Below, piece after piece: positions 7,378-22,400 of a stretch of DNA of 64,000 nt (position 1 is the first letter of the stretch; each line of letters begins with the position of its first letter). Made by a program: the position numbers and the translations under genes. The notes beneath the pieces were generated by a model. The model made no database searches. It was not told the origin of the DNA and saw nothing but the letters and a program-made list of their open reading frames with translations. Origin of the DNA: Fragilariopsis cylindrus CCMP1102 (Eukaryota > Bacillariophyta > Bacillariophyceae > Bacillariales > Bacillariaceae); assembly GCA_900095095.1 (NCBI GenBank), contig FMBT01000399.1:62001-126000 (forward strand), given 5' to 3'.

Positions 7378-8253
7378 ATGTCGTCGGAGAATAATATTGA
7401 CAACGACTACGACGATGAACAGCAACGATTTCTTGTTAATGGGACACCATTTCTATCGTATCAAGACTTGACAACCATGATCGGAAAGCTGGAACCCAAG
7501 AAGACTACAAAAACAAACAACATTGCCAAGACAACCAATAATAGCATCATGAAGCGAGAAAAACGACGACGGCAACATCATGACAATGATAAGGATCAGG
7601 ATCAGGATCAGTTGACAACAATATTAACATCGAATAATAATGAATCATTGCCATCATCATCATCGCTCCCTCTACTACCAAATGAAATAATTAGGGATAT
7701 TGCTATATATTTTACAGTAAAGAAATTGGACCCCACAAAGACTCGTGCTATCGGTTGTTCTTCATCATCGTCGGAACTCCATGAACTGAAAGAATGTCTA
7801 ATCGATTCGTCGTCATCATGGTGGATTAGTTCCATCAACGAAGGATCGTTCCATAATGGCAAGGGTGAAGAATATGTGGAATTTGAATTGGATAATACAA
7901 AAATTGTACGTTTAAGTACAGTATCAATCTCTATACCTATGTTACCTACTGGTCCACTCAGCGTTCGTACAATGCGACTAGATTGTTGCGCTGCAAGCAA
8001 TAATAATAATAATAATAATAATAGTAATAAAGAGCAACAGTGGAAACCAATTACACCTATTCTTACAGTGGATAATAGAAATGGTTGGCAAAGAATTGAA
8101 TTGAATGAACCAATTGATGCACAATATATACGACTTGTTTGTCTTAGTAATCAAGCATCAAGGCTATTAGACAACAACGAGATCACCGAGATCAACGATA
8201 CTTATGGGCATGCTATGACAGCTGTTGGTTTCTTTACCGTAAAATTTGAGTAG
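7378..8253 (+). CDS. F-box-like protein with a discoidin/DOC-like beta-sandwich
   Basis: Single exon of 291 residues from the ATG at 7378; an in-frame ATG at 7282 would add 32 weakly supported residues, so the inner start with MSSENNID is preferred. A basic, Asn/Gln-rich region is followed by SSLPLLPNEIIRDIAIYFTV, which resembles the start of an F-box helix. The C-terminal half (WWISSINEG, VEFELDNTKIVRLSTVSISI, WKPITPILTVDNRNGWQRIEL, AQYIRLVCL, ending in TAVGFFTVKFE) has the alternating-strand look of a galactose-binding-like domain. A similar layout occurs in plant F-box proteins of the At4g00755 type. If right, it would be an SCF ubiquitin-ligase substrate receptor. The F-box part is weak; the beta-sandwich is moderately likely. 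It is convergent with the dsRNA-binding gene, 162 bp away. Confidence 0.6.
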   Translation: MSSENNIDNDYDDEQQRFLVNGTPFLSYQDLTTMIGKLEPKKTTKTNNIAKTTNNSIMKREKRRRQHHDNDKDQDQDQLTTILTSNNNESLPSSSSLPLLPNEIIRDIAIYFTVKKLDPTKTRAIGCSSSSSELHELKECLIDSSSSWWISSINEGSFHNGKGEEYVEFELDNTKIVRLSTVSISIPMLPTGPLSVRTMRLDCCAASNNNNNNNNSNKEQQWKPITPILTVDNRNGWQRIELNEPIDAQYIRLVCLSNQASRLLDNNEITEINDTYGHAMTAVGFFTVKFE

Positions 8254-8415
8254 AAGAAGCCAAACTTATATATATTAGAATTGTATATTAATAGTATATT
8301 TATTATATTCATTGTCTCAATAAATACTAGTTTGTTTTCTATTGTCTTGAAGCAAGTGATACGATGAATGACTGCGCCATACTGTAATGTATTTGAGATA
8401 AAAGGAGGAAGGGTT

Positions 8416-11400
8416 TCATTCAAATCTCGATCGCTTGCTTGGTTTTTCGCGTCTTTTTTCCTGTTTATCATTATTTGGTGTCGATGAGTCACTCTCTTCG
8501 ACGCCTTCGACTTCCTCTTCAACAGGTTGTAAACAGGTCTTACTAACAAAAGTTTCGTCAAGAGGTGGAGGTAATTCTGCGCTATCGTCCCTATTCATTT
8601 TATGTCGAAGGTGGACTTCTTCTTCTTCTTCTTCTTTGAGTGGCAAAGGTTGCCTCAACGATTCAAGGTGTGGTGGATTCAAGATCTGCTGAATGCAATC
8701 CTTTCGAAGAGTCGTATATGATGATTTTGGTGGTGACGAGATGAGATAGCATCCCATATACTTCGCGAATTCAGAAAGGGTTTCAATGAAACGTTCTTTG
8801 GGTTGGTGAGAATAACTCGCAATCTGAGCAATTCGTAGTATCTTTCCCTTTTGCATGGAAAATCCAAGAGTGAGAACAGCACATCCAAGAGGAGGGTCTT
8901 CGTGAAATGCCCGACAAAGTAGGAGAACGATCGTTGATGATGGTTCCTTGTCAGAAGCCGAAATAGTTACAGACGAAAGGCTTAAATCAGCAAAATCATC
9001 GGCGTGTGATGATTTTTTGGTTCCAAATAGCTTTTCTACCCAGTATTCATCGTCACCGCTTGCTTTTCGTAATACGGTCCTTCCCACATCATCTACAGTC
9101 AGTTCTTCTGGCAAAGATCGTCCTTCCTCGTCATGCTCGTTGAGCTTTTGTAATGCGACGTCAATTCTTTCTTCTAGCTGTTGCTGACGGCTCAATTGAC
9201 GTACCAGGCCCGCTTCTTTTGATGCAACGATGTTATTAGTATTGATGTTATTGTCACATCCAGATGAAACGCTGTTTGTCAAATCTCCAAGCGAGGACAA
9301 GATGCATATCTTAATACTATCTGGAATTTCTATTGTATTACTCTTCGATAACGATTCAAAAAGGAAGTTCGGTGCAACATCATTGTCGTCTGGATTATTT
9401 GTGGGGGATCGATTATTTGTTGCATTGGACATCCCTCCTCCTCGCTTTGATTGTTGTTGTTTTAATGCTCTGCTTGCTGCATATTTTTCTCTTGCCGCTT
9501 CTGCAGCTTGTTTTACATCAGCCATTCCAACACAATCCGGAAATAACATGGCTAATAATTTTGCAGCCGCAGTGTGTCTAGCTTCACGTTTTGTACCTCC
9601 TACACCATATGACCGCAGAACTTGATAACATTCTCGAGGTTGGGTTGTGTTTGAAGATCCATCGAAGGAATCCACATCTGTTTCGTCTGTCTCAGTATTA
9701 TCAATTCGTAATTTCAATATTCCAGTACATTCAAAGGAGCCACGAGGAAAGACAGTTGACGAGTCATTAATGGGTATTCCTGCCTTTCGTTTCAACTTCG
9801 AATGCTCTCCTTCTCCTTCTCGTTCATTAGTTATGGTTGAAACTTGGTACGTGTACTCTGGCGGTTCTGTTAGTCTCTCATCAATTTGCACCATAGCATG
9901 AAGTAGAGAGCTACACACAGAGGCTCCTCGAGACGCATAGTAGGAATTTTCATCTTCATCGTCAGAAGTAGTCGATGTTGTCCCAGGGTACACATGAGGC
10001 CATTTATGCCGCTTCCTCGAGTCTTGAACTTCTGACAATCCGCTGATATTCCTTTCTTTTTTGGTCTCGCTTTTCTTCTTCATGTCGTCATCATTATTAT
10101 GGCCAATCGCTAATTGTTTTGCAAGATTGGGCGCCAATTCTTCAAGAGAGGTGATCGTCCCTATAAGTGACGATCCTTTTGATGTACGTCGCCGTTCAGG
10201 TTGACTTTTCGTCGTCGTTACTGTTCCAGGAAGTCTGATCAATATACCAGAATCTTCATCGAATTGAACACCGGGTAGCAATACTTGTAAGGTTCGACGA
10301 GACGCTTCGTGTTTGGCAGAGGCCTTGGTAATTCCCACACCAATTCCCATTTCAACACCATCTATACTGATAGTCATTTCAAACAAATTGTCGTCAAATT
10401 CTAATCGTCTACGTTTACCCTCTTCCACTTTTATATCAGTAAAAATAGGTGCCGTTCGACGTTTTCCACACCATTCGTATAGGGCACTTACTCCTGTCTT
10501 ACCCAGCAAACTTTCGTCGTTTGGTTGCCGTTGTTTCTTTTTGGTAATACAGGATGCACTACCACCATCACTACTGGAACTAGCTGTCATGGCAATTTTC
10601 CGATTGCGACGACGATTTCTGTTATAATTGTCATCATTATTGCTATTGTTATTACCGGAATCATTAGACCCTGCACTATTCCAAAATCTTCGACGACGGC
10701 GTCCTCTTTTTTGCTGACCTTGTTGTTGCGACAAAATTTCAGCAGCAGCATCAGTATGATTACATGTAGAATTGGAACAATGTTGGTGAGAATCATTGAA
10801 TGTTTCTCTTCGAACATCAACGTTGTTGTTTGCGTGATTATTATTATTATTATTATTGTTGTTGTTGTAGTTGGAAGGTGGCATGCGTCTTTGTTGCTTC
10901 CGACGACGATGATGATGATTGTGATGATGGTTAGTACTACTCCGGTTCTCATCCTCATCCTCGTCTGGATGATGACAGATGCGATCGTCATTCCCATCAT
11001 CAACATCAAAATTAGTATTATTATTGTTATCGCCACTTTGTTGTAACGGTTGCGATTGTGTAGGTGTTGTTACTGAAGATCCATATGGAGATACTGAGTT
11101 CTGCATCAGATGTTGTGGATAGACGAGCGTTGGCGATGGAATCATAGGATACTGGTGGTGGTGGTGATGATGATGATGCTGATGCTGATGATCGGGACCA
11201 CCTGCCGCTAATACCGTAGAAGCTAAATCTGTTGCAATTTGAGCAGCAGTCATTGCAGCTGCTGCTGCTGCAGAGGCATAGGCTGCCGCATGATCTCTCA
11301 TTTGAGCCTCGTAAAATTGAAGCAAGGCTGGATTACAATTTCCATTTATTAGTACGCCGCCAGACGATGGAGAGTGTTGAGGAGGTAGTGGTGGGGGTGA

Positions 11401-11637
11401 CCAAAATGGCTGCAACATTGGAGGTTGCATTTGCAGTTGCATTTGCTGATGTTGTTGCTGTTGTTGGAAGTTCATACGATGCTGATCTGCATCATTATAT
11501 AAATTATCTACAGAAGGCGTAGGAGCAACAATAGGAGGCACGGAATCATTGTCGACAGCAAGCGTTTGATCCAGCATATTTCTTGAACCTTCCTGCCGCT
11601 GGTCCGTTTGTGTTTGGCCGTTTCTATCATGGTTCAT
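8416..11637 (-). CDS. Large double-stranded-RNA-binding protein with GNAT-like C-terminal domain
   Basis: Single long frame; the first in-frame ATG is at 11637, giving about 1073 residues, and the 19 codons upstream have only a GTG. The N-terminal third is low complexity (Gln, Asn, a His run, Arg/Lys-rich RGRRRRRF). A dsRBD-like unit follows at about 377-460 (GVSALYEWCGKRR, FEMTISIDGVEMGIGVGITK, SAKHEASRRTLQVLLPG). A second, interrupted dsRBD-like unit lies at about 570-705 (SVCSSLLHAMVQIDERLTEP, then YQVLRSYGVGGTKREARHTA plus AAKLLAMLFP) with acidic insertions between strand and helix. The region at about 866-967 (STIVLLLCRAFHEDPPLGCA, KGKILRIAQIASYSHQPKER, FIETLSEFAKYMGCYL) has the strand-turn-strand-helix pattern of a GNAT fold but no clear acetyl-CoA loop. 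The dsRBDs are likely; the GNAT-like call is inference. The role could be RNA editing, processing or silencing, but no catalytic domain is certain. Confidence 0.72.
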   Translation of the reverse strand: MNHDRNGQTQTDQRQEGSRNMLDQTLAVDNDSVPPIVAPTPSVDNLYNDADQHRMNFQQQQQHQQMQLQMQPPMLQPFWSPPPLPPQHSPSSGGVLINGNCNPALLQFYEAQMRDHAAAYASAAAAAAMTAAQIATDLASTVLAAGGPDHQHQHHHHHHHHQYPMIPSPTLVYPQHLMQNSVSPYGSSVTTPTQSQPLQQSGDNNNNTNFDVDDGNDDRICHHPDEDEDENRSSTNHHHNHHHRRRKQQRRMPPSNYNNNNNNNNNNHANNNVDVRRETFNDSHQHCSNSTCNHTDAAAEILSQQQGQQKRGRRRRRFWNSAGSNDSGNNNSNNDDNYNRNRRRNRKIAMTASSSSDGGSASCITKKKQRQPNDESLLGKTGVSALYEWCGKRRTAPIFTDIKVEEGKRRRLEFDDNLFEMTISIDGVEMGIGVGITKASAKHEASRRTLQVLLPGVQFDEDSGILIRLPGTVTTTKSQPERRRTSKGSSLIGTITSLEELAPNLAKQLAIGHNNDDDMKKKSETKKERNISGLSEVQDSRKRHKWPHVYPGTTSTTSDDEDENSYYASRGASVCSSLLHAMVQIDERLTEPPEYTYQVSTITNEREGEGEHSKLKRKAGIPINDSSTVFPRGSFECTGILKLRIDNTETDETDVDSFDGSSNTTQPRECYQVLRSYGVGGTKREARHTAAAKLLAMLFPDCVGMADVKQAAEAAREKYAASRALKQQQSKRGGGMSNATNNRSPTNNPDDNDVAPNFLFESLSKSNTIEIPDSIKICILSSLGDLTNSVSSGCDNNINTNNIVASKEAGLVRQLSRQQQLEERIDVALQKLNEHDEEGRSLPEELTVDDVGRTVLRKASGDDEYWVEKLFGTKKSSHADDFADLSLSSVTISASDKEPSSTIVLLLCRAFHEDPPLGCAVLTLGFSMQKGKILRIAQIASYSHQPKERFIETLSEFAKYMGCYLISSPPKSSYTTLRKDCIQQILNPPHLESLRQPLPLKEEEEEEVHLRHKMNRDDSAELPPPLDETFVSKTCLQPVEEEVEGVEESDSSTPNNDKQEKRREKPSKRSRFE

Positions 11638-12012
11638 CCTATTTAAAGAAAAGTGAAACGGAGTTTCCTGTTTAGATAAGGCTGCCGATGACACTGATGT
11701 CGAGATTATGCATCGATAATACGCATTTCACTTTCAACATACACAAGACTTTCGAATTTAGTTTTTGTTCATTGTTGTTACTGTTGAATGTTGTAACGTT
11801 GTAACTTGTATCCCACACATTTTAAATTTCAATCAAAAGACTTTTGAACTGGTACAAAGAAATGTGTTGATCGTAGTTTGTGTGGTATGATCATACCTTC
11901 GAACCTACATTTTACTAGGATGTATATCTATATTACAACATCTATCACCACAACTATTGCGTATGTCAACGACGTACGGACAGTTTTAGAAAAATAAAAA
12001 TAAGACAATAAT
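11638..12012. other. Upstream region of the dsRNA-binding gene
   Basis: Non-coding stretch between the dsRBD gene start and the transposon target site. The transposon is inserted about 375 bp upstream of that start codon and so may separate the gene from distal promoter elements. No specific motif identified. Confidence 0.4.
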
Positions 12013-12020
12013 ATGAACAT
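12013..12020. repeat. 8-bp target-site duplication, left copy
   Basis: ATGAACAT immediately outside the left inverted repeat; identical to 18214-18221. Confidence 0.92.
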
Positions 12021-12051
12021 CAGGGGTAATAATCTATACGGGGTGCGTCAC
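12021..12051 (+). repeat. Left 31-bp terminal inverted repeat
   Basis: Starts CAGGGGTAATAATC and ends GGGTGCGTCAC; 31 of 31 bases match the reverse complement of 18183-18213. Further inward, the AACTAGATAACACTAGTTAA block near 12152-12171 has an imperfect inverted counterpart near 18086-18107. Confidence 0.95.
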
Positions 12052-12417
12052 GATCCGCGCGTCGCGTATAATTCGTCGCACAAATAAATTTAGTATGATG
12101 TACCCAAATAAGGAAATTTTCCCCAAAATCCATTTTTTAAGATTTTTTTTAACTAGATAACACTAGTTAACTATACCATTTTGGACCACATATAACATAC
12201 AAAAAAAACAAAAAATAAAAAAATTCAAAACACTTTTCTAGACCGTATTTCTATGCCGGTTCTGAAAATATCCTCTATTCATGGCTAACTATCATAAATT
12301 TAGAAAACTATTACACCTCAAAAACACTAATTTATCTACAATAAAAATAATAACAATAATACATATAGATCCGTTTTAAATATGATTTACTAATAAGGTT
12401 CAATAGATTTTACATTT

Positions 12418-15400
12418 CTACTTAGTCCTTACTGTTTTCTTTCTGTCCATCCCTTTCATTTCACCTCTGAAACTCAAACCAGATATATTATGCTTGGTTC
12501 CACGGGATGTAAGCTTCCCACGCAATCCTTTGAATACATCTTCAAATTTAGTATGTACTGTTTTCTTCACTACATACTCAAACATTTTCTTCCTGTCACC
12601 CTCAGTAACACACTGAACCTTCTCAGATGACACTTTCCACATTTCCCACAATGGGGTGTTATTGAGTATGGCTTCCTTCTCTAATCTTAAAACTTCCATC
12701 TTTGACAGTAATTTACCTTCAGTCACAGAGGATGATAAACTATCCATCAACATGTACCCAAATTCAAGAAACTCCTCCCTAACTAGAGTCATGTGTCCTC
12801 TATCTGATGTTCTCATTGTGTCATGGTAACAATTTTCCAAATAGTGGTCGCTTAAAGCTGCTTCACTCTTGTACATTCTCATTGCTGAAAGGAACTCAAT
12901 TTCTTTAGTCAATTCTGCATATTTCTCTTCATCATCATTACGTCTAAACCTTTCCTTCATTTTTGCTTTTCTTGCATGAAACACTGCCCAACCAAAAATA
13001 GAATTCACATCTCTATAGTGAAATGGCTTCTCTTTGTTACTGTTTTTTCTCAACAGCTCCGCCCGTTCAATCATGCCTGCCCACAACTTCTGTTCAATTG
13101 CTTCATCAAGAATTTGAATAAGAGCTATTACTCCCATCCTGTCGCCAATGGGACATGTATCAGAAACAAGACCCTCCAAATCTTTCTTTTCCACCAGTTC
13201 CCATATCTGGAATTGATACGATACTGCCTTTTTTTCATCATTATTCTTTGCTCCTGATTTGGCGTCACCCGCTTTTGCAAGCATATTCACTAGTTTCCAA
13301 TTAATTTGTTGGCACAGTGTATCAAAATGGCCTTCTTGTTTCCCATTCATTACATTTTCAAACCAACTTCTTGCTGGTCCAATACTAGACAACTTTGCAA
13401 ATTCTCTAAATGAGTGAGTTTTTAATAAGAGAGATGAATAGCTCTCAGTAGTCTCTTCTGTACCAACCATATTCATAAATTGTCTCACACTGTCGTCAGC
13501 AGCAACATCTTTTGGGAAAATTAATACTTTCGTTCCCAGATTAGGTACAATTTCCAAATCTCGTTTTTTAATCTGTTCGTTTAACCATTCTTCTCTCCTT
13601 TTTGGTCCTGTTGTTGAGTCATATGGAGCCTTCTTCAAGGTTTCATTTTCATTACTAATATCATCATTAGAATAGCATGTACTTTTCTTGGAAGCCATTT
13701 TAACATCAGACTGTATGTTGCTTGTAGTCAAGGCCTTTGAAATATCTCTTGCATTATCTCTTGAAAGGGACCTCATAAAAGAAAAGAAAGCTTCAATTGA
13801 ACTTTGATTAGAATGAAGGAAAGGCACAAACACAATGGAAGTGTTTTTTGATAGCAAATTCTCTGCATATTCCAAAAAGCCTGTGATAGCCACTTTTAAG
13901 TTTCTATACGTTATATGGGCTACAAACAGCTGATGCTTCTTCTGCACTACCCAAGTGCGCGGCTCCTCTCCCATCATCCATACTTTCCATTTATCAAAAT
14001 AAGTTATACATTTTTCCATGGCTTTTCTTTCAGATTTTATGTTCAGACTCAGATGAATCTTTCCATCTGTCATGCGGAATTCCCTAACCTCACGTCCCAG
14101 AGTAAGATGAGCACGTTTGTTCAGAAACCTAGCAATGAATATAAAATGTACATAGCCAGAAAATTCTATCTGTGCCATCATATCTTTTAGCTCCTTTGCA
14201 ACTTGTGATCCATCAGCAAAGACAACTTCCATCAGTAAGCTTATTTTGTCCAGTAACAATTCAGCTTCAAATCCAATTTTAACACAGTACTCTTGGATGA
14301 TGTTGTCAAAGAAATTGCTGTTGAGGCCTAGCTTCTGTCTTAAAACGTTTAACTGGTAGTTGATAGTATCATCTGTAAATATCACCTTTGCATAATGCAC
14401 ATTCATCTTACTCCACTTATCAAGATCAACCGCTTGAAAGGTAAGTTTTGGCAACTCTCGAACACAACGGGACTCTATCTGATTACTTACAACCAAGTCA
14501 TACAAGTCAGTAATATTCTCCCACTTGATTTGGTTACCATTATTCACTAGCTTTCTCTTTCCTTCTGGAGGCGCTCGGCCAATAAAGAACTGATTTCTCA
14601 TGTTCTTTAGTCCATGGACTAAGCAAAGAATTATAAATATCAACTCCTCTGGGGTTAAAGGATTCCGAAAAGAGACAGAGTCCTTCTTTAGTAATCCCTT
14701 GCATAGTTTAAGACATTTTCCTCTAGTGATTAATGTAAAAGCGCGAACATTATTTGGGCCAGCATCAGATACGAAACCCTGCACACTCAGACCAGCCATC
14801 TCACAGCAAGTTATTACATGTAGTATCTGTTTGACAATTGTATCACCATCCAGACTACCACAATTAAGAAAGTAAGCAATGTTCCAGGATTGATTTTTGC
14901 CTGTCCTGGCTCTGAAAACATTTGCTTTTGAGGCAGCTCCAACGTAGGATGTTTCTTCATCGTCTAAGTTTACACAAACATCATCCAAATTATCAATTGG
15001 ACCAACATTGGGCGACTCGTTATCCTCAGTAATACATTGTTCTGCCATTGCTTCAATTTCTTCAGCAAAATTCAAACTCGTTGCATTTTTAGTTGGAGTC
15101 AAACCATAAATGTCGTTAGTGGTGCAGTTGAACCAGATACCACACTTTAATTTTATTTCATCAAACATGAGTTGTACTGGTGTAGTTCTGTCTTTCAAAG
15201 CACCGATGTCTGCTAGAACATCATAGAACATTGCACAGTACAATGGACAGTGCCAGCTTTCACCAACTCGAATATGTGCATATTCTCGTTGTACTGTTCT
15301 TAGACTAGGAACACATTCGATTGAGCGTTCTCTTAACTTGTTTAACCCTTTCCGTCCATCTTCAAGAAAAGTCACCAGTGCAGTACGCATCATACGGGAA

Positions 15401-15663
15401 TCAAACTTTATTGATTTCTGTTTTCCAGAGATCTTTTTGCACTCATCTCCCATCATTCTACCTATCCTAGTAGCATATTCTTTTAGATGATCAGCTTGGA
15501 TATTATATTCGTCCTTTAGTAGTTTCGACTTCAGGAGAACATTCAAAATTTTGGTTTCTAGTTGTACATTTTGTTCTTCGCTTCCCATGTACTCGAATAC
15601 CTGCTCTAGTACAGCTGGTATCTGGTCTTTGTCAAATGTAATGCATTCATCTTCCCTAACCAA
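12418..15663 (-). CDS. P-element/THAP9-like transposase, catalytic part (ORF2)
   Basis: Open frame of 1081 codons with no upstream ATG; its first codon as given is TTG and the first ATG is near 15585, so it may be expressed as a continuation of ORF1. Family landmarks in order: VQLMFDEIKLKCGIWF, whose Asp/Glu fit the first catalytic acidic position; SWNIAYFLNCG; GLSVQGFVSDAGPNNVRAF, the second acidic position; LVHGLKNMRNQFF, corresponding to the 'H-hhK-hRN' motif of P transposases; and SNQSSIEAFFSFMRSLSRD, corresponding to the C-terminal catalytic Glu region. This order matches P/THAP9 transposases, which cut DNA with an RNase H-like domain. There are no internal stops. A hAT transposase is the main alternative, but no hATC dimerisation region is seen. 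Confidence 0.82.
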   Translation of the reverse strand: MVREDECITFDKDQIPAVLEQVFEYMGSEEQNVQLETKILNVLLKSKLLKDEYNIQADHLKEYATRIGRMMGDECKKISGKQKSIKFDSRMMRTALVTFLEDGRKGLNKLRERSIECVPSLRTVQREYAHIRVGESWHCPLYCAMFYDVLADIGALKDRTTPVQLMFDEIKLKCGIWFNCTTNDIYGLTPTKNATSLNFAEEIEAMAEQCITEDNESPNVGPIDNLDDVCVNLDDEETSYVGAASKANVFRARTGKNQSWNIAYFLNCGSLDGDTIVKQILHVITCCEMAGLSVQGFVSDAGPNNVRAFTLITRGKCLKLCKGLLKKDSVSFRNPLTPEELIFIILCLVHGLKNMRNQFFIGRAPPEGKRKLVNNGNQIKWENITDLYDLVVSNQIESRCVRELPKLTFQAVDLDKWSKMNVHYAKVIFTDDTINYQLNVLRQKLGLNSNFFDNIIQEYCVKIGFEAELLLDKISLLMEVVFADGSQVAKELKDMMAQIEFSGYVHFIFIARFLNKRAHLTLGREVREFRMTDGKIHLSLNIKSERKAMEKCITYFDKWKVWMMGEEPRTWVVQKKHQLFVAHITYRNLKVAITGFLEYAENLLSKNTSIVFVPFLHSNQSSIEAFFSFMRSLSRDNARDISKALTTSNIQSDVKMASKKSTCYSNDDISNENETLKKAPYDSTTGPKRREEWLNEQIKKRDLEIVPNLGTKVLIFPKDVAADDSVRQFMNMVGTEETTESYSSLLLKTHSFREFAKLSSIGPARSWFENVMNGKQEGHFDTLCQQINWKLVNMLAKAGDAKSGAKNNDEKKAVSYQFQIWELVEKKDLEGLVSDTCPIGDRMGVIALIQILDEAIEQKLWAGMIERAELLRKNSNKEKPFHYRDVNSIFGWAVFHARKAKMKERFRRNDDEEKYAELTKEIEFLSAMRMYKSEAALSDHYLENCYHDTMRTSDRGHMTLVREEFLEFGYMLMDSLSSSVTEGKLLSKMEVLRLEKEAILNNTPLWEMWKVSSEKVQCVTEGDRKKMFEYVVKKTVHTKFEDVFKGLRGKLTSRGTKHNISGLSFRGEMKGMDRKKTVRTK

Positions 15664-17059
15664 CTTCTTTTAGGGTAAGTTTGTATTTACGTATTGTTAC
15701 ATTCTGTGAATGAATCAATTTTGACATATAGCGCAGTCTATTTCTCAGTGCAGGAGGAGACATTGAAGAGAAGTTTACTGTTGATGATGCCTGCACTCTG
15801 CTCACAGCCATAATTTCAATCTTCTTTTCTCGCCTAGCACACCGTCTAAAAAGTTCATAACAGAATAAGCACAGCTGTCTACCAGTTACTCTTTGTTGTA
15901 TTATGAATAACTCACAACCATCTGGTCTTGCAGTGGACAAGCATGTATGCAAAAATGCTTTAGGAGCCAGCTCAAAAATGGTTATTTGTTGATCAGGATC
16001 AAAATGATACTCTGATGCAACATAATTCAATATACGGCGCACAGACTTTGCAAAGGGTTCCAAATTGTCAGCATCGTAGTGTTGCAAGTAACATTGAGCT
16101 AAATATTCCCTCTGAATTTCCGGAGTTGGGAACGGATCATCCAAAGTTGGTGGAACATGAGCAATCTTCTGTTTCTTTTTATCAGACTCATGCTCCACTT
16201 TTTTATCTGTAGAAATGCGGAGTACATTTGATGGTTTCCTGTCTTCTTCTGATTTATTTGGTGTAGAATATTCAGTGTCATTGGCCAATGCTGTAGGATG
16301 CGTCCTTTCATCTAACAGTTGTCCAGCTTCAATAAGTGTATTTGTTTGTTCTTGGATTGGAACGCACACATACATTCCATCAAATGCAGAAATGCCAGAA
16401 TCATCAAATTTTCGATCAATTTTAGTTGTCAAAAATTGGACTGTATTACGATATTCTTTAAATCTGTTACTACTACGTAGTTTATCAATCTGATAGACAT
16501 TGTCAGTTGTTAGCAGAGTTGTTGCCGGTTTTGCATTCACCCCAATTTCCTTCCACAAAGCTAATGGGAAATGGTGCCGCGCAACACGGAACCTATTTGA
16601 ATATTTTGTTTGCATTTTTTTTGGTACTTTTAAAGAGCAGAATACCCCAGCACGAAACAGTAAATTTTTGACAAGTATGACTGTTTTCTTACTGGTAGAG
16701 GCCTTCCATGTAAATGAAGGTCCTTTCCAAGGGTGTCCATCATTTCCATGAAGAAAAAATTGCTGTGAAACAACTCTGCATTTCTCCCATTCACATATGC
16801 ATCCAAAATCTGGCATTACCTGTGATGCTTTTTTTGATGTAGCATAAGGTACTTTTGTGGTTGGAGATGCATCGCCAGGTGATTTCATTCCTTCTTCAGT
16901 TACTTGAAGTGAATCACCATTATCACTTTCAATTTGTGGATCACAAAGATCGCAAAAGGTATTAAAATTTTGTGCTTGAGCTTCCATCTTGAAAGAATCG
17001 TCTTCAGCTCTGGCACTATTATCATTACTATCATTATTATTATTACTAATATTATTCAT
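15656..17059 (-). CDS. Transposon ORF1: zinc-finger-like DNA-binding and coiled-coil part
   Basis: Open frame of 467 codons starting at an ATG (17059). After an acidic N-terminus with CDLCDPQIE, a probable zinc-binding unit contains GCICEWEKCR and, about 65 residues on, YSNRFRVARHHFPLALWKE. The spacing and the final HHF recall a THAP finger (C-x-C ... C-x-x-H), but the third Cys position is not obvious, so it is called THAP-like only. Later come a second Cys cluster (RQLCLFCYELFRRCARREKK) and a helical SPPALRNRLRYMSKLIHSQN region like the leucine-zipper of P transposases. The frame ends 8 nt inside ORF2. Order and strand suggest ORF1 and ORF2 are the two halves of one transposase. Confidence 0.72.
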   Translation of the reverse strand: MNNISNNNNDSNDNSARAEDDSFKMEAQAQNFNTFCDLCDPQIESDNGDSLQVTEEGMKSPGDASPTTKVPYATSKKASQVMPDFGCICEWEKCRVVSQQFFLHGNDGHPWKGPSFTWKASTSKKTVILVKNLLFRAGVFCSLKVPKKMQTKYSNRFRVARHHFPLALWKEIGVNAKPATTLLTTDNVYQIDKLRSSNRFKEYRNTVQFLTTKIDRKFDDSGISAFDGMYVCVPIQEQTNTLIEAGQLLDERTHPTALANDTEYSTPNKSEEDRKPSNVLRISTDKKVEHESDKKKQKIAHVPPTLDDPFPTPEIQREYLAQCYLQHYDADNLEPFAKSVRRILNYVASEYHFDPDQQITIFELAPKAFLHTCLSTARPDGCELFIIQQRVTGRQLCLFCYELFRRCARREKKIEIMAVSRVQASSTVNFSSMSPPALRNRLRYMSKLIHSQNVTIRKYKLTLKEVG

Positions 17060-18182
17060 ACTATCAGTGTTGTTGTTACCACTCTATAGTATAGAAATAT
17101 TTAGTAAAAATCGGCAAAGCAAACAACAAAATGTGTGAGCAAATTTTGTATCAACAGCTCTGGTAAAAGTATTGCGCGTACGAGAATTCAGATGGAAAGC
17201 CAGAGCTTAGCAGACCATCCCACACCCCCATGTGGTTGATTGTTGTGTGGCACTATGTATGTGGAAAAATGGGTACTCTATCAGTAGATTCTGATCAACA
17301 ATGTTGTGGCACCAAGACTGAATGTGGAATGAAATAAAATGCTTCTACCCGTAGTTTAAATTATACTACACTAAATATGTATGAGGCTACTTGTTGTGTA
17401 TGACTACTTGAAGAACTAATTCAATTTTACACTAGGCTCACTAGGCTAACTTTCAATTTTTGCAGGCAACACATTCTGAGTTTGTACTAGTAAAGAAATC
17501 AAAGTTTCAATTTTTGCAGGCAACACATTCTGAGTTTGTACTAGTAAAGAAATCAAAATTTCAATTTTTGCAGGCAACACATTCTGAGTTTGTACTAGTA
17601 AAGAAATCAAAGTTTCAATTTTTGCAGGCAACACATTCTGAGTTTGTACTAGTAGTAAAGAAATCAAGATTTCAATTTTGTTCGGCGACCCTACCCTATA
17701 CATATAGGCATGATTCTGACTTTTGTGGGCTTTGTAACCATCGGTGAAATTATTACTAGTAGAACCGCGACGAATTCGTACCCTGGGACATGGCAAATGC
17801 AACCAAATAAGGGAAAATATATGCTCTTAAAGTGTGTTTTTTGTTAAAAAATAACGGGGAAAAACTAAATCATGTCCTGAAAAAAAAACTAAATCATGTC
17901 ATAAAAAATTATTATGAAAAAAAATCCTATCCGTGTTTTAATCCACCAGAACGAACCGATCCACTAAAGTTAGTCGTGAATGGAGGTCAATGTTTTATGG
18001 TTGAATCATGGGTCTGTGCACCAATCAAGTTTAGGGGGTCAGAGCTGTACAGGAAGTCAAACATAAATGAGGTGTTTTAATCACTTTTTAACTAGTACTA
18101 TCTAGTGAAAAAAAATGCGCAAAAATTAATTTTGGGAAAATTTCTTATTTGTGTGCATCATACTAAATATCAAAATCGCGCA
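17060..18182. other. Transposon 5' non-coding subterminal region
   Basis: About 1.1 kb between ORF1 and the right inverted repeat; probably holds the transposase promoter and protein-binding sites. It contains the 54-bp tandem array (separate entry) and A-rich runs at 17879-17925. Small ORFs here (for example 17832-18080) show no recognisable features. Confidence 0.5.
17451..17690 (+). repeat. 54-bp tandem repeat, four copies, inside the transposon
   Basis: Units containing GCAGGCAACACATTCTGAG start at about 17462, 17516, 17570 and 17624; the first three are almost identical and the last carries an extra TAG and diverges at its end. As 54 is a multiple of three, repetitive ORFs run through it on both strands; these are shadows. 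Transposase binding sites or a minisatellite expansion are both possible. Confidence 0.93.
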
Positions 18183-18213
18183 GTGACGCACCCCGTATAG
18201 ATTATTACCCCTG
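18183..18213 (-). repeat. Right 31-bp terminal inverted repeat
   Basis: Exact reverse complement of 12021-12051, ending ATTATTACCCCTG. Confidence 0.95.
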
Positions 18214-18221
18214 ATGAACAT
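18214..18221. repeat. 8-bp target-site duplication, right copy
   Basis: ATGAACAT immediately outside the right inverted repeat; identical to 12013-12020. Confidence 0.92.
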
Positions 18222-18665
18222 ATTAGTCTATTAAAATTTAGCAATTGTTTCGTAGAAGCATGTGTATTACTTTGTTGAGGCTACGCTAGCTAGCATATCA
18301 TATATAACGAGACATGGACAATTTTTTGCTGTTCTTGTTGCTGTTGCTGTTGCAGTCGCCATTTCGCTAAGACCGAAGAATTTATCATTGACTAAAGTTT
18401 TCCAGGTAATATCGAAAAGTCAATCAACAAATAAGGCACCAGTGAGTGTGCCCCATACAATAACACCGAAGATTTACTGGCATGTGCATATTTAAGGTGA
18501 TTGGAAAGAAATGCTCGACTATTAGAGTAAGGCCAATTATAGTTATAAAAGTAAAACAGATTGAGGAGCGATACGGTGATGGCTAGTACAAATAGTTTGT
18601 AGTAATGTAGAATAATAAAGTGGTGGTTTGACTGCAATAATAGATAACATGTTATATTAAATCAT
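18222..18665. other. Spacer between transposon and PS-repeat fragment
   Basis: AT-rich non-coding stretch with a short GTTGCT microsatellite near 18326-18352. No gene seen. Confidence 0.4.
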
Positions 18666-18666
18666 A

Positions 18667-19363
18667 CTACACATTGACAGTTATTGAGGCTGTTGCATTT
18701 TCTATTACGAATTCAATCGCGCACTCTTCAACTCTAACGTTTGTGGTGTTTGTTGCGGTCACGTTTGTTATCGCTGTTGCGGTCGCTGTAGCGGTCGCTG
18801 TAGCGCACGCCTCTTGGCCCGCTGGTGTGTATGCCGTTGCGATTGCGATTGCAATTGCTGATCCGGTTGCTAATCCGGTTGCTGTTGCTGTTGCTGTTGC
18901 TGTAGCTACCCCGTTAGGCGCTTTTACTGTAGATATTGCTATACCTGTCGCTGTTGCGTAAAATTCGGGCGATGATAGTACTGTTGCGGTCGATGTTGCA
19001 GTTGATGTTACGGTCGATTCTGCTATCGATATCGGTGTCGCATTACCTATCACTGATGCAGTCATTTCTTTTGCTGCTGTCGGATCTCGAAATCCCCAAC
19101 TAGGGGGCAGAACTCGGTGCACCACTCGGATCAAGGCTAGGTTTGAGGCTAGGAACAGAACTTGGTGAACGACTGGGCGCGAAGCTCAGAATGGAACTGG
19201 GAAGAGTACTTGGGACAGCATTGGAAACAGAGCTCAGTGTACTGCTCGGATCGAGACTGTGAACGGCGCTGGGAGAAGCACTTGAATCAGTGCTTGGATA
19301 TGCACTAGGAATCGCACTGGGAGCAAGACTAGGGGCAGCACTTGGATAATATCTATTTATCTT
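18667..19363 (-). pseudogene. Broken fragment of a PS-repeat protein gene
   Basis: Reading the minus strand from about 19360, one frame gives a Pro-Ser repeat (SAAPSLAPSAIPSAYPSTDS, later SSVPSLKPSLDPSGAPSSAP) closely like the 2233-residue neighbour. That frame meets a stop near 19090. An overlapping frame then runs 19134-18667, encoding Ala/Thr repeats (VATATATATATGLATG, ACATATATATATAITNV) and ending ENATASITVNV. The PS part and the AT part look like successive segments of one C-terminal region now in different frames, and there is no start codon or signal segment upstream. I infer a truncated, frame-broken duplicate of the neighbouring gene. A downstream exon of a spliced gene is the alternative; no clean splice pair was seen. 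Confidence 0.55.
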
Positions 19364-19436
19364 TGAAGAGTGAGCTTTTTTTTCAAACTATCATTTGCTA
19401 GATCCAATCCCACGATGATTGGTGAGTCACAGTTAA

Positions 19437-22400
19437 TTAGTTGAACCTACTGGGACAAACAATTGCGGCTTCTGCAGGAGTATCTTCTTGAATGTCGCCG
19501 TCGCATTCTTCACTGCAGGAATCTTCCGTTATGCACGAACCGGCTGCGAAAACCAAAGAAGCACACTTGCAGGAGTTTTTGCCGGTGCAACTACCGGCTG
19601 CAGAGGAGAAAGTAGCTTTGGTTCCCCAACATGAACCCTCACCAGTACAAGAACCAGCAGCAATGGAACCACCAGCTTTGTAGCAGGAACCCTTGCCAGT
19701 ACAAGAACCAGCAGCAATGAAACCAGTAGACCTGTAGCAGGAACCCTCTCCAGTACAAGAACCAGCAGCAATGGAACCTTCGCTCACTGCAACACAGGCA
19801 TCCCCGCCAAGACACGCATCAGCCGCAACATAGATGGCTAAACATTGGCAGTTTGTGCCTGGACCAATGCAACTTCCGGCGCCAACTACGATAGGATACG
19901 AACTGGGAAAGGCGCTACGAGAAGCACTAGAATCAGCGCTTGGATACGCACTAGGAATTGCACTGGGAGCAACACTAGGAGCAGCACTTGGATCAAAACT
20001 TGGGATGAAACTGGGTGCTCTGGGCGATAAACTTGGACCTGAACTGGGCAAGCTACTCTGTGACTCACTTGGTCCAGAGCTAGGACTATCACTTGGAAAC
20101 AAACTGGGCTTTGTACTCAGAACTGCGATTGGAACCGAACTAGGAACAGTGCTAGGAGAAGCACTTGAATCAGCGCTTGGATTTGCACTAGGAATTGCAC
20201 TGGGAGCAACACTAGGAGCAGTACTTGGATCAGAACTTGGGATGGAACTGGGTGCTCTGGGCGATAAACTTGGACCTGAACTGGGCAAGCTACTCTGTGA
20301 CTCACTTGGTCCTGAGCTAGGACTATCACTTGGAAACAAACTGGGCTTTGTACTCAGAACTGTGATCGGATCTGAACTAGGAACGGCGCTAGGAGAAGCA
20401 CTTGAATCAGCGCTTGAATTAGGAACGGCGCTAGGAGAAGCACTGGGAGCAACACTAGGGGCAGCACTTGGATCAAAACTTGGGATGAAACTGGGTGCTC
20501 TTGGCGATAAACTTGGACCTGAACTGGGCAAGCTACTCTGTGACTCACTTGGTCCTGAGCTAGGACTATCACTTGGAAACAAACTGGGCTTTGTACTCAG
20601 AACTGCGATCGGATCTGAACTAGGAACAGTGCTAGGAGAAGCACTTGAATCAGCGCTTGGATATGCACTAGGAATTGCACTGGGAGCAAAACTAGGGGCA
20701 GCACTTGGATCAGAACTTGGGATGAAACTGGGTGCTCTGGGCGATAAACTTGGACCTGAACTGGGCAAGCTACTCTGTGACTCACTTGGTCCTGAGCTAG
20801 GACTATCACTTGGAAACAAACTGGGCTTTGTACTCAGAACTGTGATCGGATCTGAACTAGGAACAGTGCTAGGAGAAGCACTTGAATCAGCGCTTGGATA
20901 TGCACTAGGAATTGCACTGGGAGCAAAACTAGGAGCAGCACTTGGATCAAAACTTGGATCAAAACTTGGGATGAAACTGGGTGCTCTGGGCGATAAATTT
21001 GGACCTGAACTGGGCAAGCTACTCTGTGACTCACTTGGTCCTGAGCTAGGACTATCACTTGGAAACAAACTGGGCTTTGTACTCAGAACTGTGATCGGAT
21101 CTGAACTAGGAACAGTGCTAGGAGAAGCACTTGAATCAGCACTTGAATTAGGAACGGCGCTAGGAGAAGCACTGGGAGCAACATAAGGAGCAGCACTTGG
21201 ATCAGAACTTGGGATGGAACTGGGTGCTCTGGGCGCTAAATTTGGACCTGAACTGGGCAAGCTACTCTGTGACTCACTTGGTCCTGAGCTAGGACTATCA
21301 CTTGGAAACAAACTGGGCTTTGTACTCAGAACTGCGATCGGATCTGAACTAGGAACAGTGCTAGGAGAAGCACTTGAATCAGCGCTTGAATTAGGAACGG
21401 CGCTAGGAGAAGCACTGGGAGCAACACTAGGGGCAGCACTTGGATCAAAACTTGGGATGAAACTGGGTGCTCTGGGCGATAAACTTGGACCTGAACTGGG
21501 CAAGCTACTCTGTGACTCACTTGGTCCTGAGCTAGGACTATCACTTGGAAACAAACTGGGCTTTGTACTCAGAACTGCGATTGGATCTGAACTAGGAACA
21601 GTGCTAGGAGAAGCACTTGAATCAGCGCTTGAATTAGGAACGGCCCTAGGAGAAGCACTGGGAGCAACACTAGGGGCAGTACTTGGATCAAAACTTGGGA
21701 TGAAACTGGGTGCTCTTGGCGCTAAACTTGGACCTGAACTGGGCAAGCTACTCTGTGACTCACTTGGTCCTGAGCTAGGACTATCACTTGGAAACAAACT
21801 GGGCTTTGTACTCAGAACTGCGATCGGATCTGAACTAGGAACAGTGCTAGGAGAAGCACTTGAATCAGCGCTTGAATTAGGAACGGCGCTAGGAGAAGCA
21901 CTGGGAGCAAGACTAGGGGCAGTACTTGGATCAAAACTTGGGATGAAACTGGGTGCTCTTGGCGCTAAACTTGGACCTGAACTGGGCAAGCTACTCTGTG
22001 ACTCACTTGGTCCTGAGCTAGGACTATCACTTGGAAACAAACTGGGCTTTGTACTCAGAACTGCGATCGGAACCGAACTAAGAACGGCGCTAGGAGAAGC
22101 ACTTGAATCAGTGCTTGGATACGCACTAGGAATTGCACTGGGAGCAAGACTTGGGGCAGCACTTGGATCAAAACTTGGGATGAAACTGGGTGCTCTGGGC
22201 GATAAACTTGGACCTGAACTGGGCAAGCTACTCTGTGACTCACTTGGTCCTGAGCTAGGACTCAGTGAAAGACTTGGAAGGGAACTAGGAGCAGCATTTG
22301 GTGAAAAACTTGGAAGAGAACTTGGTGCAAAACTGTTGCTTGGTTCTGTAGTTGCAGTAGGTTCAGAACTTGGTGCAGCACTTTTGGTGGGTTCATTACT

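Follow-up and report, generated by a model that had tools for sequence, protein, structure and literature searches.

A probable P-superfamily DNA transposon of a divergent branch, with an unoccupied insertion site, in a diatom-like genome

Structure of the element

The window (the whole stretch of DNA analysed here, 64,000 nucleotides in length) contains a 6,193-bp element at 12021-18213 which, to judge from its predicted protein, is quite probably a cut-and-paste DNA transposon belonging to a divergent branch of the P superfamily. We place it there because a P-type catalytic domain, PF21787, scores over its curated cut-off and because the catalytic residues follow one another in the order expected of P transposases. 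The inverted ends and the perfect 8-bp duplication described in the earlier note were borne out over 12013-18221. The terminal inverted repeat CAGGGGTAATAATCTATACGGGGTGCGTCAC occupies 12021-12051 on the plus strand and 18183-18213 on the minus strand, the two ends being identical at 31 of 31 positions, and the element is bordered by the direct duplication ATGAACAT. The features are as follows (strand in brackets where one applies):

12013-12020: target site duplication, left copy, ATGAACAT; a single copy stands at the empty site C608:93024-93031
12021-12051 (+): left 31-bp terminal inverted repeat, 31/31 against the right end
12088-12170: left subterminal inverted repeat, with arms at 12088-12122 and 12115-12170, whose complementarity to arms lying within 18088-18168 is 86% and 80%, respectively
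12418-15663 (-): predicted catalytic and C-terminal part of the transposase, 1,081-aa frame, with D168, D300, C347-x-x-H350, E624 and PF21787
15656-17059 (-): predicted N-terminal part of the transposase, 467-aa frame, of the same gene and out of frame with the remainder; C84 reads through the junction, and in family 2 a single frame covers both parts
17451-17679: 54-bp unit, repeated 4.2 times in tandem and lying upstream of the transposase frame
18088-18168: right subterminal inverted repeat, imperfect, 80-86% complementary to the left arms
18183-18213 (-): right 31-bp terminal inverted repeat, 31/31 against the left end
18214-18221: target site duplication, right copy, ATGAACAT, perfect over 8 bp

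The copy had been called complete-looking, which is right for its ends and content and wrong for its reading frame, the gene being split by a short indel. It is structurally complete yet probably non-autonomous.

The unoccupied site

Both flanks of the element have a counterpart on C608 at 98% identity, the left one (window 9500-12020) at C608:90514-93031 and the right one (window 18214-20700) at C608:93024-95516, and the two matches overlap there by 8 bases. When joined, the flanks are identical to C608 at 1,023 of 1,040 positions, with one ATGAACAT and no element sequence. C608 carries the unoccupied site, probably on the other haplotype; a haplotype is to be preferred to a recent duplication because identity is 98% on both sides. 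With the site unoccupied there, the insertion is therefore precise and young, as the earlier description of a young-looking copy had suggested, and it is polymorphic within the assembly.

One transposase gene in two frames

The two minus-strand frames of the window copy, 15656-17059 (467 aa) and 12418-15663 (1,081 aa), overlap by 8 bp; compared with C84, a sister copy, a short indel whose length is not divisible by three sets them apart. In C84 a single frame of 576 aa leads without a break from the 467-aa region to the beginning of the catalytic frame; the remainder of that copy is internally deleted. In C108, a related copy of a second family, both window frames align with one and the same open frame, of 1,522 aa. 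On this comparison of sequences, the two frames are best described as one gene, broken in the window copy. Thus, of the long uninterrupted transposase frames reported before, two long frames do exist, but C84 and family 2 mark them as pieces of one split gene. The 8-bp overlap could also be taken to mean that the element has two genes, with the frames encoding separate proteins or being joined by programmed frameshifting; this is highly improbable, given that C84 crosses the junction in one frame and C108 spans both regions in one.

Related copies in the genome

The host genome (67.9 Mb) contains at least 53 matches to an 800-base query taken from window position 12001. It was matched 24 times by the 26-base end core, with up to three mismatches allowed, and nowhere (0) by a control pattern read backwards, so the recurrence of the ends exceeds chance. 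Twenty regions were fetched, 12 of them with two recognisable ends of this family (family 1), which together with the window makes 13 elements for the duplication count. All 13 are bordered by perfect 8-bp duplications, at 11 independent sites; three copies (C273, C158:19277 and C95) that have one duplication in common and similar flanks were counted as a single site. For L011, which has two candidate right ends, the outer one was used, the inner one yielding no duplication. Eight loci with a single recognisable end each (L021-L028) were excluded from the count. The ends thus recur as ends of elements, and the recurrence at unrelated positions that the earlier note would have taken as a refutation was not seen.

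The 13 elements range in size from 462 to 6,933 bp. The longest relatives of the window element are C84 and C63, with 91-96% identity to it over the three largest aligned blocks of each. The remaining copies have lost internal sequence or are miniature elements, inverted repeats being present inside some of them; these shortened and miniature derivatives have their ends and the length of their duplications in common with the full element. The longest element of the family, of 6,933 bp, has a piggyBac-like frame nested within it. Such a frame in the C63 copy (L010 4356-7172, 938 aa), that of a piggyBac-like transposase, matches PF13843 DDE_Tnp_1_7 with E 6.3e-22.

Family 2 (C108, C144 and C78) is 38-39% identical to the window family over the alignment of the two (A1), and its ends are distinct, the left one starting with CAGGGGTAATAA and the right one with CAGGGGTCATAA. 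Perfect 8-bp duplications border C108 and C78, two of the three copies; for C144 no perfect duplication was found. C108 and C144 share 99.87% identity over 6,205 aligned columns, and their flanks are unrelated. In C144 the longest stretch free of stops reaches 1,313 aa, short of the 1,522 of C108, and its 1,306 aligned residues are identical to those of C108 with no mismatch, while the gene of C78 is spread over two frames. The C108 copy lies inside another repeat, relatives of which, with no element in them, occur on C351, C580 (two places) and C279; in these the two flanks of C108 adjoin each other. A search of the genome with both flanks found no second haplotype of this place. Adjoining it on the right (L050 about 8149-8401) is a repeat of about 250 bp with many copies in the genome, several of them 97-98% identical, which is probably another miniature element.

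Superfamily assignment

The 1,081-aa frame matches the Pfam model PF21787 (TNP-like_RNaseH_N) with E 1e-7 and 32.7 bits against a cut-off of 24.6. This model represents the N-terminal part of the RNase H catalytic domain of P elements. It exceeds its curated cut-off in family-2 proteins too (C108, E 1.1e-7; C78, E 7.7e-8). In a six-frame search of the genome with the same model, seven candidates were scored and the window copy alone was listed, at 27.3 bits, with nothing in any of 14 control genomes; family 2 was missed by this search and matches as predicted protein only.

Residues D168, D300, C347xxH350 and E624 are invariant in A1, which has three rows. The order D, D, C(2)H, E agrees, at the level of sequence comparison, with the P signature D, D, [C/D](2)H, E as given in a published account (PMC8230255). 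The Pfam match covers residues 240-311 of the window protein and positions 64-135 of the PF21787 profile, the corresponding figures for Drosophila P being 212-316 and 12-137; counted back from the end of the match, D300 falls at about the profile position of D303 of the Drosophila enzyme. In an unguided hhalign alignment D300 is placed on D303 and CxxH on DxxH. Between H350 and E624 there are 273 residues, for which the model of the GTP-binding insertion, PF21788, was not listed.

Of the five P-type domains that the Pfam library finds in Drosophila P itself, it found a single one here. THAP (PF05485) gave no match in five proteins at a limit of E 10, and at the same limit the models for Tnp_P_element (the P-type HTH), the GTP-binding domain (GBD) and RNaseH_C were not listed. 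A C2CH pattern is absent from the first 250 residues of all five sequences scanned, C144 among them lacking the far N-terminus. Four of five N-terminal sequences contain instead a CxCxWxxC motif, the fifth being C144, which is without that region. Several hundred conserved residues follow the catalytic E. The assignment to the P superfamily made in the earlier note therefore stands on PF21787 and the order of the catalytic residues, while the canonical THAP and GTP-binding domains are undetectable.

Direct comparisons with the Drosophila enzyme gave scores near chance. The family profile scored below 16 of 500 shuffles of the Drosophila protein. Smith-Waterman scores were reached by 1 of 100 (BLOSUM45) and 3 of 100 (BLOSUM62) shuffles for the 1,081-aa frame, and by 3 of 100 and 20 of 100, respectively, for family 2. 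The hhalign score of 30.6 exceeded all 60 shuffles (maximum 27.8), at a probability, by the program's own estimate, of only 5%. We interpret these values as homology that is real but remote. Among the solved structures in PDB, the family profile A1 did not find 6p5a and gave a single match (E 0.66), not to a transposase; the window protein likewise gave a single match (E 0.89), again to no transposase. A single-sequence structure model of the 1,081-aa frame alone had a pLDDT of 34.4, too low for the fold to be read from it. In viral contigs patterns from the window protein matched nothing, and A1 matched 106 stretches, none of which was confirmed; in contigs of prokaryotic genomes A1 matched 97 stretches, again with none confirmed.

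Several of these observations would also suit a separate superfamily with an RNase H fold and an 8-bp duplication that is not nested in P, for instance a lineage sister to P and hAT, or one of protists, like Novosib: the four domain models without a match (THAP, P-type HTH, GBD and RNaseH_C), the near-chance pairwise similarity to Drosophila P, the conserved region past the catalytic E, the replacement of C2CH by CxCxWxxC at the N-terminus, and the CAGGGG ends, which are hAT-like. We consider this unlikely, though deserving some weight, as PF21787 exceeds its curated cut-off in three proteins and C(2)H after the second D is a P-superfamily signature, with the register being kept in the unguided alignment.

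hAT elements have an 8-bp duplication and a CAGGGG-like end. The present element fits them in both respects, and yet a hAT element is hardly credible here: a P-type Pfam domain is present, and no hAT domain, for dimerisation or other, was listed for five proteins at E 10, a limit to be read with the HMMER filters in mind, which drop most matches above about 0.1. Kolobok and KDZ elements are defined by a TTAA duplication and by the KDZ domain, respectively. The duplications found here are 8 bp long and varied, with no TTAA duplication of the Kolobok kind, and no KDZ domain was listed by Pfam at the limit of E 10.

Comparison with known elements

The Drosophila P element has 31-bp ends and an 8-bp duplication, as has the diatom element; the 8 bp are also given in PMC1562414. 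Its transposase (PDB 6p5a/6pe2) resembles the one predicted here in the DDE order, the C/D(2)H motif, PF21787 and a large insertion that follows the second D and precedes E. The two differ in that for the diatom element none of the models for THAP, P-type HTH, the GTP-binding domain or RNaseH_C gave a match, and in that its ends read CAGGGG. Its spacings are longer as well (132 against 73 residues between the first and second D, and 324 against 228 between the second D and E), as is the whole predicted transposase, of about 1,550 aa against 751. From the hAT superfamily the element differs in having a protein with no listed hAT domain.

Animal P elements with terminal inverted repeats of 27-31 bp, 8-bp duplications and MITEs are already known: those of Anopheles gambiae have repeats of this length, perfect 8-bp duplications and P-MITEs with the same ends (PMC1562414). 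The subfamilies described there are thus similar to the present family in the length of the ends, the duplications and the miniature derivatives with common ends; in contrast, their transposases retain a well conserved THAP domain (PMC1562414). The agreement with animal P elements in end length and duplication was counted in favour of P membership.

Proposed mechanism

With its frame intact, the gene would yield a single transposase of about 1,550 aa, whose active site, of the RNase H-like DDE type, is predicted to be split by a large insertion lying, as in P, between the second D and E. This protein would bind at the inverted ends, cut the element out and insert it at a staggered break in the target, giving rise to the 8-bp duplication, with the DDE site presumably responsible for both excision and strand transfer. 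The window copy inserted into one of two haplotype-like sequences, as the empty site shows. Since its frame is broken by an indel, this copy would either have moved in trans or have been broken after landing; the shortened and miniature derivatives presumably moved in trans too. The source transposase may be encoded elsewhere in the genome or the population, or may have been lost.

Host and distribution

A light-harvesting protein (L057) supports the diatom-like host proposed in the earlier note: among solved structures its best match is to FCPI-7, a fucoxanthin chlorophyll protein in structure 6ly5 (E 1.5e-87), presumably from a diatom. Matches to the chlorophyll-binding family listed for the genome number 104, a count that takes in fragments; another light-harvesting protein, L056, was uninformative on the host.

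P elements are classic animal transposons, and human THAP9 has the P-element transposase signature. They have also been listed for green algae. One review describes P elements as mostly restricted to Drosophila (PMC5791352), and a study of Cyclotella cryptica gives 12 superfamilies of DNA transposons, P not among them (PMC7466962). No report of P elements in diatoms appeared among the papers listed, which is a weak negative. The suggestion that the element would widen the range of P is accordingly uncertain, both for the earlier listing in green algae and for the undetectable canonical domains. It is possible, and we propose it only tentatively, that families 1 and 2 form a P-like clade, hitherto undescribed, that belongs to diatoms or perhaps to stramenopiles and has a non-THAP DNA-binding region, a C-terminal domain of its own, hAT-like ends and recent or continuing mobility. 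If so, such a clade could help to bridge P and hAT. Found in a diatom-like genome together with an allele that lacks it, recent copies that are almost identical and a relative whose frame is open, a P-like element would show this chemistry at work far outside animals and in the absence of a detectable THAP finger. The element offers a test of which P-element domains are ancestral, and might serve as a native mobile vector for diatoms.

Sequences next to the element

Right of the element, over window about 19884-22260, lies a repeated unit some 820 bp long, with apparently one extra copy on C608 compared with the window's contig, by a rough count from overlapping matches. To its left lies a minus-strand frame of 1,092 aa rich in Q, N and H (window 8416-11694), which starts about 320 bp from the insertion; the element may therefore sit in the promoter region of this frame.
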